64,000 nucleotides of DNA from the NCBI GenBank assembly GCA_024235695.1, contig JACKLX010000011.1, forward strand, positions 62,001 through 126,000. The letters run 5' to 3'. The position numbers and the translations under genes are program-made. This document shows positions 5,200-25,282 of this stretch, piece by piece. The DNA comes from Accumulibacter sp. Its GTDB lineage: Bacteria; Pseudomonadota; Gammaproteobacteria; Burkholderiales; Rhodocyclaceae. How positions within the stretch are numbered: the stretch's first letter is position 1; every line of letters begins with the position of its first letter. The notes beneath the pieces were generated by a model. The model was given only the letters and a program-made list of their open reading frames with translations, was not told the origin of the DNA and searched no databases.

Positions 5200-6513
5200 T
5201 CACTCACACGGTCGCTTGTCGATCACCCGACGCGCCTTGCCGAGCGAGCGTTCGATGCCGCCGATATCGACGATGCGGACCTGAACGGAAATGCCGATGA
5301 AGGACTTGATGTGGTGTTGCAGGGCGCGCGCCACGTGCTCCTTGTCGACCGCCAGGCGGAAGCGGTACTCGCGCTTGAGCTCGACGTTGACGTCGACCGC
5401 GTCGAGGTGACCGTCGCGCCAGACTTCGATCAGGTAGTGCGGCGACAGCATCGGCTGCTGCAGGATCAGTTCCTCGATCTGTGACGGAAAGACGTTCACG
5501 CCGCGAATGATCAGCATGTCGTCCGAGCGGCCGGTGATCTTGTCCATGCGCCGCATCGAGCGCGAGGTCGGCGGCAGCAGACGCGTCAGGTCGCGCGTCC
5601 GGTAACGGATGATCGGCAGTGCTTCCTTGCTCAACGAGGTGAAAACCAGCTCGCCAGAGCTGCCGTCGGGCAGCACCTCGCCGGTCGCCGGGTCGATGAT
5701 CTCGGGGTAGAAATGGTCCTCCCAGATCACCGGCCCATCCTTGCTTTCGGCGCACTCGCTGGCGACCCCGGGGCCGATCACTTCCGACAGTCCGTAGAGG
5801 TCGATCGCGTCGATGGCGAAGGTGGTCTCGATTTCGCGGCGCATCAGCTCGCTCCACGGCTCGGCGCCGAACAGGCCGACGCGCAGCCGCGTCGAATCCG
5901 GGGTGACGTTCTGTCGCTTGAATTCATCGGCGAGGTTGAGCATGTACGACGGCGTCACCATGATGATGTCCGGCTGGAAGTCGACGATCAGCTGCACCTG
6001 TTTCTCGGTCTGTCCGCCCGACATCGGAATCACCATGCACCCCAGGCGCTCGGCGCCGTAGTGCGCTCCGAGGCCGCCGGTAAACAGACCGTAGCCGTAA
6101 CCGACATGCACCATGTCGCCGCGGCGCCCACCAGCGGCGTAGATCGAGCGGGCCATCACCGTCGCCCACATGTCGACGTCTTTCTGGGTGTAGCCGACGA
6201 CGGTCGGCTGGCCGGTGGTACCCGACGAGGCGTGCACCCGCACGACCTGCTCGCGCGGCACGGCGAACATCCCGAAGGGATAGTTGTCGCGCAGATCCGA
6301 CTTGGTCGTGAACGGGAAGCGGTGCAGGTCGGTGACGCTCTTCAGGTCATCCGGATGGACGCCGTGGGCATCGAACTTGCGGCGGTAGTGTTCGACATTG
6401 TCGTAGGCCTGGTGCAGGGACCAGCGCAGACGATCGAATTGCAGCGCCGTAATTTCATCGCGGCTGGCGGTTTCGATGGGTTCGTAGGAGGTGGCACCGC
6501 TCGCTGCAGCCAT
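5200..6513 (-). CDS. paaK: Phenylacetate-CoA ligase
   Basis: A 437-residue acyl-adenylate-forming enzyme that activates phenylacetate to phenylacetyl-CoA with ATP, the first step of aerobic phenylacetate degradation. The AMP-binding motif SSGTTGQPTVVGYTQKDVDMWA, the YGLSEVIGPGVASECAESKDG motif, the YRTRDLTRLLPPTSRSMRRMDKITGRSDDMLIIRGVNVFPSQIEE hinge region and the C-terminal SLGKARRVIDKR lysine are all present, matching PaaK over its full length. No other paa genes lie nearby, so it is either an isolated copy or used for another aryl acid. It is divergent from the MATE gene. Confidence 0.93.
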   Translation of the reverse strand: MAAASGATSYEPIETASRDEITALQFDRLRWSLHQAYDNVEHYRRKFDAHGVHPDDLKSVTDLHRFPFTTKSDLRDNYPFGMFAVPREQVVRVHASSGTTGQPTVVGYTQKDVDMWATVMARSIYAAGGRRGDMVHVGYGYGLFTGGLGAHYGAERLGCMVIPMSGGQTEKQVQLIVDFQPDIIMVTPSYMLNLADEFKRQNVTPDSTRLRVGLFGAEPWSELMRREIETTFAIDAIDLYGLSEVIGPGVASECAESKDGPVIWEDHFYPEIIDPATGEVLPDGSSGELVFTSLSKEALPIIRYRTRDLTRLLPPTSRSMRRMDKITGRSDDMLIIRGVNVFPSQIEELILQQPMLSPHYLIEVWRDGHLDAVDVNVELKREYRFRLAVDKEHVARALQHHIKSFIGISVQVRIVDIGGIERSLGKARRVIDKRPCE

Positions 6514-23617: not shown

Positions 23618-24201
23618 GGGAACTTGCCGTCGCCGGGCGCGGGCCCTGACCAAGCCAGTGGCCGATCGGCGCCAAGCGATCGTCAAGCAAGCTTGCGCTG
23701 GCGGCCGGTGGATGTGTCGAAAAATTTTACAACCAAGTCCATCGCCAGCCCAAGGCGCCCCAATAGCGCCCTGCTTTAATGAAGGAACAATTGCATGGCA
23801 AGGTTCTTGCTCAAGATCCAGTGCGTCTGCTCGGCGCGACTCGCAAGGGCTCATCCCGGCACGGCAATGGACGCCCGTCGTCGCACTCGGGACGGCTCAC
23901 GGAATGGCACGGCAGACGGCTTGCTGACCACGCCGCGTCAGGCGAAGTGGTCTGGTCAGCAGGGTCGCCGCGAGCTTGGGAACAAGAAAGTCGCTCCGGC
24001 GGACGGGCAAGACGTTTGACAAACCATCCTATCAGCTTACAAGTCTCTGAAAGAAATCATGATTGGCTGCTCGATTACACCAACAGGCGCGCTCCGGGTT
24101 TACTTCGAACCGGTAGCCAAAAGACTGCGCGGTGGAGATTTCTCGAGTAGAATTGGGGCTTGCTCGGGCACTTTACGTCGTGGACAGGGTCGGGGAGCAC
24201 T
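23618..24201. other. Region without an intact recognisable gene
   Basis: The 584 bases between the kinase fusion gene and the small hypothetical gene carry a TGTCGAAAAATTTTACA element, a weak -24/-12-like site and a ribosome site plus ATG at 23795, followed by a 74-codon open frame of improbable composition (23795-24019). It may be a decayed gene. The segment 24020-24200 is noticeably less GC-rich than its surroundings. No RNA gene was recognised. Confidence 0.5.
23715..23731 (+). promoter_or_regulatory. PEP-CTERM-regulon-like palindromic element
   Basis: TGTCGAAAAATTTTACA is an imperfect dyad of the TGT-(A/T-rich)-ACA type, which I recall lying ahead of PEP-CTERM protein genes in exosortase-carrying betaproteobacteria, where PrsK/PrsR and sigma-54 regulate them. 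A GG-N10-GC site (AGGCGCCCCAATAGC, 23753-23767) and an AAGGAACA ribosome site follow at fitting distances. The gene downstream is not intact. Confidence 0.35.
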
Positions 24202-24558
24202 ATGAATATCCTCAATAACTGGAAAACTCTGGAACTGGTCACCCGTGACGGCGAGACACTGGTATGCATCGAGGGGCGCGTGTATGGCAGCAATCCGCGT
24301 TTCCCATCGTCCTCGCACATCAGAACGTCACCAGTCACCGGCTACAGCTTCGAGTCAAATTCGATGGTGGTAATGACCAAGCGTGGCTCGGAGTACCTGC
24401 TGGGAAAGGCTGACCCATCGGAAACCTTTGCCCAGCAGCGCCTGATGCGGCGCCTTTCGCGACTCGGACAGAAACCACCGTCCACCTTCAACGAACTCGA
24501 TACGCAGCTCACTGGTTACACCGAAAGCCGCAAGGAAGACGCCGCCAAGGAGAGCTGA
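24202..24558 (+). CDS. Hypothetical protein
   Basis: A 118-residue protein without signal peptide or membrane segment. The ATG at 24202 is preceded by a GGGGAG site; an in-frame ATG at 24160 lacks one. The sequence (MNILNNWKTLELVTRDGETLVCIEGRVYGSNPRFPSSSHIRTSPVTGYSFESNSMVVMTKRGSEYLLGKAD...) suggests a small beta-rich domain with a charged helical C-terminus (QQRLMRRLSRLGQ). Codon usage looks coding. I do not recognise a family. The neighbours (kinase fusion, tmRNA) give no functional hint. Confidence 0.65.
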   Translation: MNILNNWKTLELVTRDGETLVCIEGRVYGSNPRFPSSSHIRTSPVTGYSFESNSMVVMTKRGSEYLLGKADPSETFAQQRLMRRLSRLGQKPPSTFNELDTQLTGYTESRKEDAAKES

Positions 24559-24859
24559 GCCGGCTCGACTGGTTTTGCATTCCGGCAGGCCGGGTGGCTC
24601 GGCGCGCATCGCGCGTGACGCGTCGGTCGAAGCTGTCGCGCCTCGACTGCGCAGGCACCAGCGCACTGGACCCCAACATCCACCAAGGTGCCGACAAGCC
24701 CCGACCAGTTTCACCACCGCAAGTTCGTGCCCTGCAGCCGGCTCCCCCAGGCCTTGACTCGCCATCGGTAACGGCGATGCCGGCGGGCCTCGCCGCCAGG
24801 CACGACCTGGCATGACCCCGACAACCGCCGCCGATGTCGCGCCGCTTGGTCCACAAATG
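24559..24859. other. Intergenic region, nothing recognised
   Basis: These 301 bases between the hypothetical gene and the 3' end of the tmRNA coding piece hold only short, overlapping open frames of GC-bias type. No promoter, RNA or repeat was seen. Confidence 0.5.
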
Positions 24860-25114
24860 ACGGCGGGGGCCGAAGCCCCCGCCGATAGCCATTCTGTTTA
24901 TCGGACGGCTATGTCCTCAGCAGGCCTTAAGCGGCCATTGCGAAACGCTCATCATTGGCGTTTGTGGTTTTGCGCGGATTACGTCCGTCGCCTCTCGGGC
25001 CGCCTGCTCGCCATCTGTCACCCTGTCGAAACCGGTACACCCCCGCAGTGGTGGAGGTGGCGGGAATCGAACCCGCGTCCAGAACGCTTCCGGTTTGCCG
25101 GAATTACGACCATG
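24860..25114 (-). ncRNA. ssrA: Circularly permuted (two-piece) tmRNA
   Basis: tmRNA rescues stalled ribosomes and tags nascent proteins for proteolysis. Here the gene order is inverted: the acceptor piece comes first (about 25114 to 25049), with a T-arm GCGGG-TTCGATT-CCCGC, the 3' acceptor strand CACCTCC, A and an encoded CCA. After only four bases (CTGC, 25048-25045) the coding piece begins with GGGGGTG (25044-25038), which pairs fully with CACCTCC, including a G-U at the third pair, the alanine identity mark. The tmRNA core GGTTTCGACAGGG follows. The tag frame (24959-24927) encodes ANDERFAMAA and stops with TAA. A pseudoknot follows (GGAC/GTCC at 24916-24903, with loop ATAGCC pairing GGCTAT at 24890-24885), then a UUCG-capped hairpin. 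The exact ends are estimated. Confidence 0.92.
24862..24883 (-). terminator. UUCG-capped terminal hairpin of the tmRNA
   Basis: A 9-bp perfect stem GGCGGGGGC / GCCCCCGCC with a TTCG loop (minus-strand reading) closes the coding piece. Only a short T run follows (GTCATTTG), so it may act as both a stabilising 3' end and a weak intrinsic terminator. Confidence 0.6.
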
Positions 25115-25120
25115 TCGACG

Positions 25121-25149
25121 ATTATGGGGGCGACCGTCGATAAACTCAA
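25121..25149 (-). promoter_or_regulatory. Sigma-70 promoter of the tmRNA gene
   Basis: On the minus strand TTGAGT (25149-25144) and CATAAT (25126-25121) are separated by exactly 17 bases. Initiation about 7 bases downstream would begin the acceptor-piece precursor near 25114. Confidence 0.75.
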
Positions 25150-25282
25150 GGACTGAAACATCGCGACTGGCGCGGACCGCGGGCGGATCGCCAGCGGCGT
25201 ACCGCGGCAACGGCCGGTCGTACTTCAGGCCGACAGCAGCAATCGACCGCGCCCTCCCTGATCGCCGCACAGCGGCGGCGTA

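Follow-up and report, generated by a model that had tools for sequence, protein, structure and literature searches.

A permuted ssrA gene, encoding transfer-messenger RNA (tmRNA), lies on the minus strand at 24858-25163 of the window, a 64,000-nucleotide stretch of Accumulibacter sp. DNA (contig JACKLX010000011.1 of assembly GCA_024235695.1, positions 62,001 to 126,000). It was found by both cmscan and ARAGORN. The RF01850 beta_tmRNA model matched at 25163-24858 (-) with 232.8 bits against a cut-off of 84, and the RF04321 tmRNA_permuted model at 25111-24927 (-) with 156.2 bits against 47. ARAGORN independently called a permuted tmRNA with the tag ANDERFAMAA, and the standard one-piece model, RF00023, stayed below its cut-off at the locus (33.9 against 47 bits). 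The acceptor half stands upstream of the coding half and the tag reading frame closes with two alanines followed by a stop, both of which define RF01850. The acceptor stem forms 7/7 pairs, with G-U as the third pair from the 5' end (G3-U70) and A73 as the discriminator; an acceptor with a G-U third pair and A73 is of the alanine type. An encoded CCA is separated from the coding half by only four bases, CTGC. The gene thus differs from the hairpin-closed type, in which the intervening sequence (IVS) is 23-48 nt long and CCA-less and the discriminator is paired: here the IVS is 4 nt, CCA is encoded and A73 is predicted to be free.

A preliminary description, made from the sequence alone, had claimed the permuted order, the seven acceptor pairs with G-U third, the CTGC between CCA and the next G (25048-25045, minus strand) and the tag. 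The order is borne out by cmscan, ARAGORN and the sequence, the acceptor pairs by the sequence and an alignment, and the tag by ARAGORN; the Rfam beta_tmRNA covariance check that it proposed was passed with the score given above. On the joint evidence, the locus is probably a functional two-piece tmRNA gene in a compact layout, matured by RNase P and trimming, whose lineage has moved among the Rhodocyclaceae.

The layout was compared across permuted tmRNA loci gathered by covariance and pattern searches. Of 140 loci 135 were parsed (G025, G370, G448, G500 and G419 were not), seven of them from other families (G780, G591, G710, G826, G688, G782 and G910). The sample mixes several searches, so layout counts are not frequencies, and genome counts from some of the locus searches are lower bounds, with 4-10 candidates scored per genome. 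Two classes were seen. The compact class, with a spacer of 3-6 nt, comprises 47/135 loci and encodes CCA in 47/47; the long class, with a spacer of 23-48 nt, comprises 88/135 and lacks CCA in 77/88. No spacer between 7 and 22 nt occurred among the 135 parsed loci.

All 28 genomes of the host genus have an RF01850 match over the cut-off. The compact form is present in 26 of the 27 that were parsed (25 with 4 nt, one with 3); the exception is G384, placed in this genus, with 27 nt, and G370 is the unparsed one. Short spacers also occur in other genera of the family. In a pattern search of the family, made so as to admit CCA-less short spacers, 107/395 genomes matched. An exact-pattern search for a CCA-encoded spacer of 0-30 nt in 398 genomes drawn from the phylum matched only the host itself. 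The short spacer singled out in the preliminary description is therefore real but not peculiar: it is the rule in the genus, is shared by other genera of the family and ranges from 1 to 6 nt elsewhere, and its reading as a one-genome curiosity was rejected. The ending AMAA, set there against the common ALAA, fared similarly. Among the 132 of 135 parsed genes in which the tag was read, ANDERFALAA is indeed the commoner (76, against 8 with ANDERFAMAA, 7 compact and 1 long), but AMAA is only a minor variant and was rejected as meaningful.

Genus g290 (L101, L102, L123, L232-L237) holds nearly every layout, CCA-less forms of 24-42 nt, CCA-bearing forms of 23-24 nt, and 6 nt and 4 nt forms, and is a good place for studying the layout switch. 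Two genomes have two copies of the permuted tmRNA stretch, each on its own contig and identical over the matched sequence (G1148, C87 and C142; G1118, C48 and C75), the result of either duplication or an assembly artefact.

The T-arm, acceptor and spacer of each of the 135 genes (47 compact, 88 long) were folded. Among the long genes, position 73 is always paired (88/88) and the base before the coding half, N-1, is U in 87/88, so that the acceptor helix extends beyond the two presumed cut sites. The compact genes leave position 73 free in 46/47, and their N-1 is U in one, C in 24, G in 16 and A in 6. The 40-nt T-arm, acceptor and loop of the window gene, folded in isolation, gave an 8-nt loop, ACCACUGC, at -19.9 kcal/mol; 3/200 shuffles were as good.

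Conservation of the stems was measured in 35 of the 40 compact genes with enough flanking sequence, the window gene included. All 35 carry the variant pseudoknot; five compact genes with a long-type pseudoknot were excluded. The named stems are paired in 98.6% of cells, and two-sided changes were found in 12/38 pairs, against 3.7 in shuffles and at most 3 in slid controls. The acceptor stem is paired at every position in 35/35 genes, with one compensatory change; a hairpin of the acceptor piece, TTCCGG/CCGGAA, shows no two-sided change among the 35. Judged from these aligned sequences, the tmRNA stems, including the acceptor, pseudoknot and terminator, are under selection. A chance match or misreading was rejected on the ARAGORN call, the cmscan matches and the stem conservation. 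The 3' pseudoknot (24903..24916) is of the H-type, and its sequence is unlike the long-form consensus. The features are collected in Table 1.

Table 1. Features of the compact permuted tmRNA gene in window coordinates
Feature	Position	Strand	Basis or remark
-35-like hexamer TTGAGT	25144..25149	-	with -10: 9/12 consensus matches, spacer 17; shuffles mean 0.1
-10-like hexamer CATAAT	25121..25126	-	Rfam beta_tmRNA model covers the same promoter-like stretch
Acceptor piece, ~66 nt	25049..25114	-	5' end near 25114 inferred from -10 position
T-arm GCGGG-UUCGAUU-CCCGC	25060..25076	-	sequence and fold; 2/5 pairs with two-sided changes
Acceptor stem 3' strand CACCTCC	25053..25059	-	sequence, alignment of compact genes
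Discriminator A73, predicted unpaired	25052	-	folding
Encoded CCA	25049..25051	-	sequence
IVS CTGC, 4 bases	25045..25048	-	with A73 and CCA, predicted 8-nt loop ACCACUGC closed by acceptor stem
Coding piece, ~184 nt if its end is the terminator stem	24861..25044	-	predicted ends; starts GGGGGUG at predicted RNase P site 25045/25044
Acceptor stem 5' strand GGGGGTG	25038..25044	-	all 7 pairs, G3-U70
Tag frame ANDERFAMAA and stop	24927..24959	-	ARAGORN and sequence
3' pseudoknot stem 1 GGAC/GUCC	24916-24913 with 24906-24903	-	two-sided changes in 2/4 pairs
Pseudoknot stem 2, 5' arm AUAGCC	24912-24907	-	two-sided changes in 1/6 pairs of stem 2
Pseudoknot stem 2, 3' arm GGCUAU	24885..24890	-	alignment and sequence
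Terminator-like hairpin CGGCGGGGGC-UUCG-GCCCCCGCCG, weak T tail	24861..24884	-	6/10 pairs with two-sided changes

The host assembly measures 3.83 Mb and holds a single RF01850 match. A second, non-permuted ssrA, which the preliminary description had named as the finding that would count against it, was not found, although at 83.7% completeness the absence is not absolute: RF00023 gave eight matches, none over the cut-off, one being the tmRNA locus and the other seven each a tRNA by ARAGORN. SmpB is encoded in the genome (196.4 bits), and a class A RNase P RNA and a PolyA_pol-family protein of the CCA-adding type are present. An apparently unusual P15 motif in the RNase P RNA (GGC against an expected GGU) was dropped, GGC being the Rfam consensus there. 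The neighbours on one side of the tmRNA gene include FliE, a sigma-54 response regulator, a sensor kinase and FliF. A 132-aa reading frame without a Pfam match (24160-24558, plus strand) adjoins the gene; matches to it, at 64-84% identity, are found in 15 of 25 other loci of the genus (L040-L063, L065).

Very short spacers are also found in other lineages. A search of the named genome collection for CCA followed by a short spacer returned 45 contigs; CCA was required, so the search is silent on CCA-less short spacers outside the family. A perfect 7-pair acceptor is present in 44/45 contigs, where the spacer measures 4 nt in 38, 5 nt in three, and 3 nt, 6 nt and 1 nt in one apiece. Spacers of 5 nt are found in Aphanocapsa lilacina, a Dyella and a Pseudogulbenkiania bin. 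The single-base spacer (CCA-T-GGGGGCG) belongs to a Rickettsiales bin (L157, 1406-1676; alpha_tmRNA, 127.9 bits), in which the tmRNA reading frame, read by eye, is ANDNRPAYDLALAA and there is no ARAGORN call. Two of the records with a 4-nt spacer, Dechloromonas sp. H13 and Azonexaceae bacterium s22, are not labelled metagenome bins and so are probably culturable.

The remaining contig, in a Hydrogenophaga bin (L171), was dropped, as its acceptor has 5/7 pairs and the gene order is not permuted. The region (5812-6150) is a 17-tRNA array with an 83-nt RF00023 match (68.5 bits), too short for a full tmRNA, between tRNA-Ala and tRNA-Glu; the array is possibly phage-borne. A compact tmRNA of betaproteobacterial type also appears in a bog assembly labelled Mycobacteriaceae (L176, 396-443), probably a misbinned contig.

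The history of the two layouts was followed on gene trees. An rpoB tree covering 60 genomes (layout known for 59) requires at least 14 layout changes. On a tree of tmRNA core columns, with acceptor, spacer and pseudoknot removed and two of the 59 genomes left out for short flanks, the layout changes four times; rpoB needs 14 for these 57 genomes. When the pseudoknot columns are included (55 genomes, four of the 59 left out for short flanks) the counts are four and 13, and a wider tmRNA tree of 129 of the 135 parsed genes (42 compact; six left out) has five changes. Scatter on the rpoB tree combined with few changes on the tmRNA tree suggests exchange of gene lineages. A distinct pseudoknot sequence is common to 36/41 compact genes and occurs in 0/82 of the long genes compared. 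By the approximately unbiased (AU) test, the tmRNA data reject the grouping of G440 with G530, which are of the same genus and opposite layouts (p 3e-7), and the host genus including G384 as one group (p 1e-5). In ten independent pairs on the rpoB tree, the compact member is the one with encoded CCA in 8-10, never the reverse (p 0.002-0.008), and has a non-U N-1 in 10/10. Together, the trees suggest that a compact ssrA lineage, mostly with its own 3' pseudoknot, was exchanged among Rhodocyclaceae genera.

Alternatively, the scatter could come from repeated loss of the hairpin in place, that is, from convergence rather than transfer. Five of 41 compact genes (G407, G1070, G426, G417 and G1042) combine a long-type pseudoknot with a compact spacer, distant lineages have spacers of 1-5 nt, and genus g290 mixes the forms listed above. 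Convergence is nevertheless rather unlikely, given the pseudoknot shared by most compact genes and the four changes against 14. The behaviour of the five genes is mixed. With the pseudoknot kept, G407 and G1070 stand among the long genes; when it is removed they move, on a long branch, into the compact group. G426 stays among long genes on either tree. G417 too falls with the compact group when the pseudoknot is removed. These three placements also argue against convergence, since the long genes then enclose only two compact ones, G426 and the long-branched G958. Separate origins of the compact form inside the family are likely.

The G384 locus (L039) holds a long, CCA-less tmRNA amid genes unlike those around its relatives' tmRNA; it has no reading frame in common, at over 40% identity, with any of 111 other loci, and may be a transfer or a misbinned contig. 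Two compact loci of the same genus, L057 and the contig-end L062, have none of the window's neighbours either, so gene position alone proves little. Linking of loci by shared neighbours was too permissive to be usable (one component took in 98/112 loci).

The anatomy, the encoded CCA, the predicted open loop, the distribution and the conservation are observed, and a maturation pathway can be proposed from them. A single transcript would carry the acceptor half, CCA, CUGC and the coding half. The acceptor stem would close the 8-nt loop A-CCA-CUGC, in which neither the discriminator nor CCA would be paired. With the free ACC(A) as its anchor, RNase P would cut once between 25045 and 25044, giving the coding piece its 5' end at G1, and 3' exonucleases would trim CUGC from the acceptor piece and expose CCA for alanylation. 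The two pieces would remain paired and act with SmpB in trans-translation. We infer each enzyme step, the RNA ends and the charging, as we do the transfer between genera; one RNase P cut before G1 with exonuclease trimming of CUGC is the most likely route. The preliminary description saw in the spacer little room for processing enzymes. The spacer is short, but may pose no difficulty: where CCA is encoded and free, a single RNase P cut and 3' trimming would suffice. CCA is encoded in 10/10 host tRNA genes inspected, so in this host trimming back to a CCA that is already encoded is plausibly routine. According to the available part of PMC11143913, the substrate is anchored by base pairing between its RCCA and the RNase P RNA, and selected substrates in which a 7-bp helix was joined to a 3' trailer or a loop underwent cleavage 5' of a G.

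A single-strand endonuclease of the RNase E/G type might instead cut the 8-nt loop first, leaving RNase P and the exonucleases only to tidy the ends. The predicted unpaired state of the loop would suit such an enzyme. The loop is short, however, and not AU-rich, and AU-rich sequence is the preference of RNase E. The part of PMC3978253 available states that it is not known if free ends are required by RNase P and tRNase Z, which leaves room for an earlier cut, whereas loop-bearing RNase P substrates were cut directly in the work excerpted from PMC11143913; on balance this order of events seems rather improbable. Less probable still is that tRNase Z and RNase P both cut and CCA is then re-added, the proposal made for permuted tmRNA generally in a review (PMC3985003), whose accessible text names the two enzymes only as 'probably' responsible. 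The PolyA_pol-family gene in the host would allow it, and the lack of CCA in most long-IVS relatives fits it. A decayed or disused ssrA copy is a barely credible reading of the locus: the -10 is CATAAT and the T tail of the terminator weak, but it is the only copy found in the host assembly, its tag is open, its stems are kept with compensatory changes and RF01850 matches recur throughout the genus.

Several observations weigh against RNase P cleavage of an open loop and against transfer. Positions 74 and 75 are predicted to be paired in 16/47 and 17/47 compact genes, so a fully open loop is not predicted for every gene. A 119-nt fold did not recover the tRNA-like structure (z -0.48) and was not used as support. 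The selected RNase P substrates were cut less well than pre-tRNA, as the same part of PMC11143913 states. The groups for the AU tests were picked after the tree was seen. The tmRNA tree has only three supported independent layout changes (median p 0.25), so the association of spacer length with CCA would carry no independent weight if the gene is transferred whole. The tmRNA trees use 170-254 columns and have many weak forks and long-branch warnings. Finally, many of the genomes are drafts or metagenome bins, and misbinning could explain part of the scatter; G417, G447, G373 and G382 are single-contig genomes, which limits this reading.

It may be, although we hold this tentatively and at somewhat less than even chances, that the compact genes form a distinct maturation class, in which an open 5-10 nt loop with an encoded CCA takes the place of the hairpin-closed, mostly CCA-less IVS, and a single RNase P cut inside the closed loop, with trimming, yields both ends. 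Such a class would have arisen more than once (in the Rhodocyclaceae, one cyanobacterium, Dyella, the Pseudogulbenkiania bin and the Rickettsiales bin with its 1-base IVS) and been exchanged between Rhodocyclaceae genera together with its own pseudoknot.

The family of permuted two-piece tmRNAs is long known, the betaproteobacterial form reportedly from Sharkady and Williams in 2004; the compact layout is less ordinary. No description of a compact class was found in the literature searched, including the accessible parts of PMC4131195 and PMC9004378; the founding papers lay outside this scope, and a description may be in print. A curated database of 97,179 tmRNA sequences mentions long IVSs and, in the part available, gives no minimum (PMC11915505). 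The compact layout bears on the cutting of permuted precursors that have hardly any spacer. In the bacterial set the same RNA occurs naturally with an open loop and with a hairpin-closed one, and the probably culturable 4-nt cases make the need of RNase P for a free RCCA, and the role of the encoded CCA, directly testable.

Compared with RF01850 and RF04321, the window gene is alike in gene order, promoter-like stretch, T-arm, acceptor stem, tag, pseudoknot and terminator positions. It differs in that 28 model positions lie between the halves in the RF01850 alignment and four bases here, that CCA is encoded and predicted unpaired, and that the 3' pseudoknot sequence is another. It is likewise unlike those long relatives, 77 of the 88, that have a CCA-less, hairpin-closed IVS. 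The standard one-piece ssrA (RF00023) has the same tRNA-like domain, tag and SmpB partner, whereas the window gene is permuted and the host genome has no RF00023 match over the cut-off. The alphaproteobacterial permuted tmRNA (RF01849) shares the permuted order and the two pieces. Its IVS is 75-125 bp according to the available text of PMC2704228, and 129 nt in Hodgkinia according to that of PMC6581868; the Rickettsiales bin, in contrast to this long IVS, has 1 nt and an encoded CCA. The permuted tRNA-Tyr of the archaeon Thermofilum pendens resembles the compact genes in its very short IVS, 1 nt there, and its encoded CCA; the removal of that single nucleotide is called intriguing and unsolved in the part of PMC3978253 available. 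The halves of permuted tRNA are religated in the known pathway, whereas the pieces of tmRNA stay separate.
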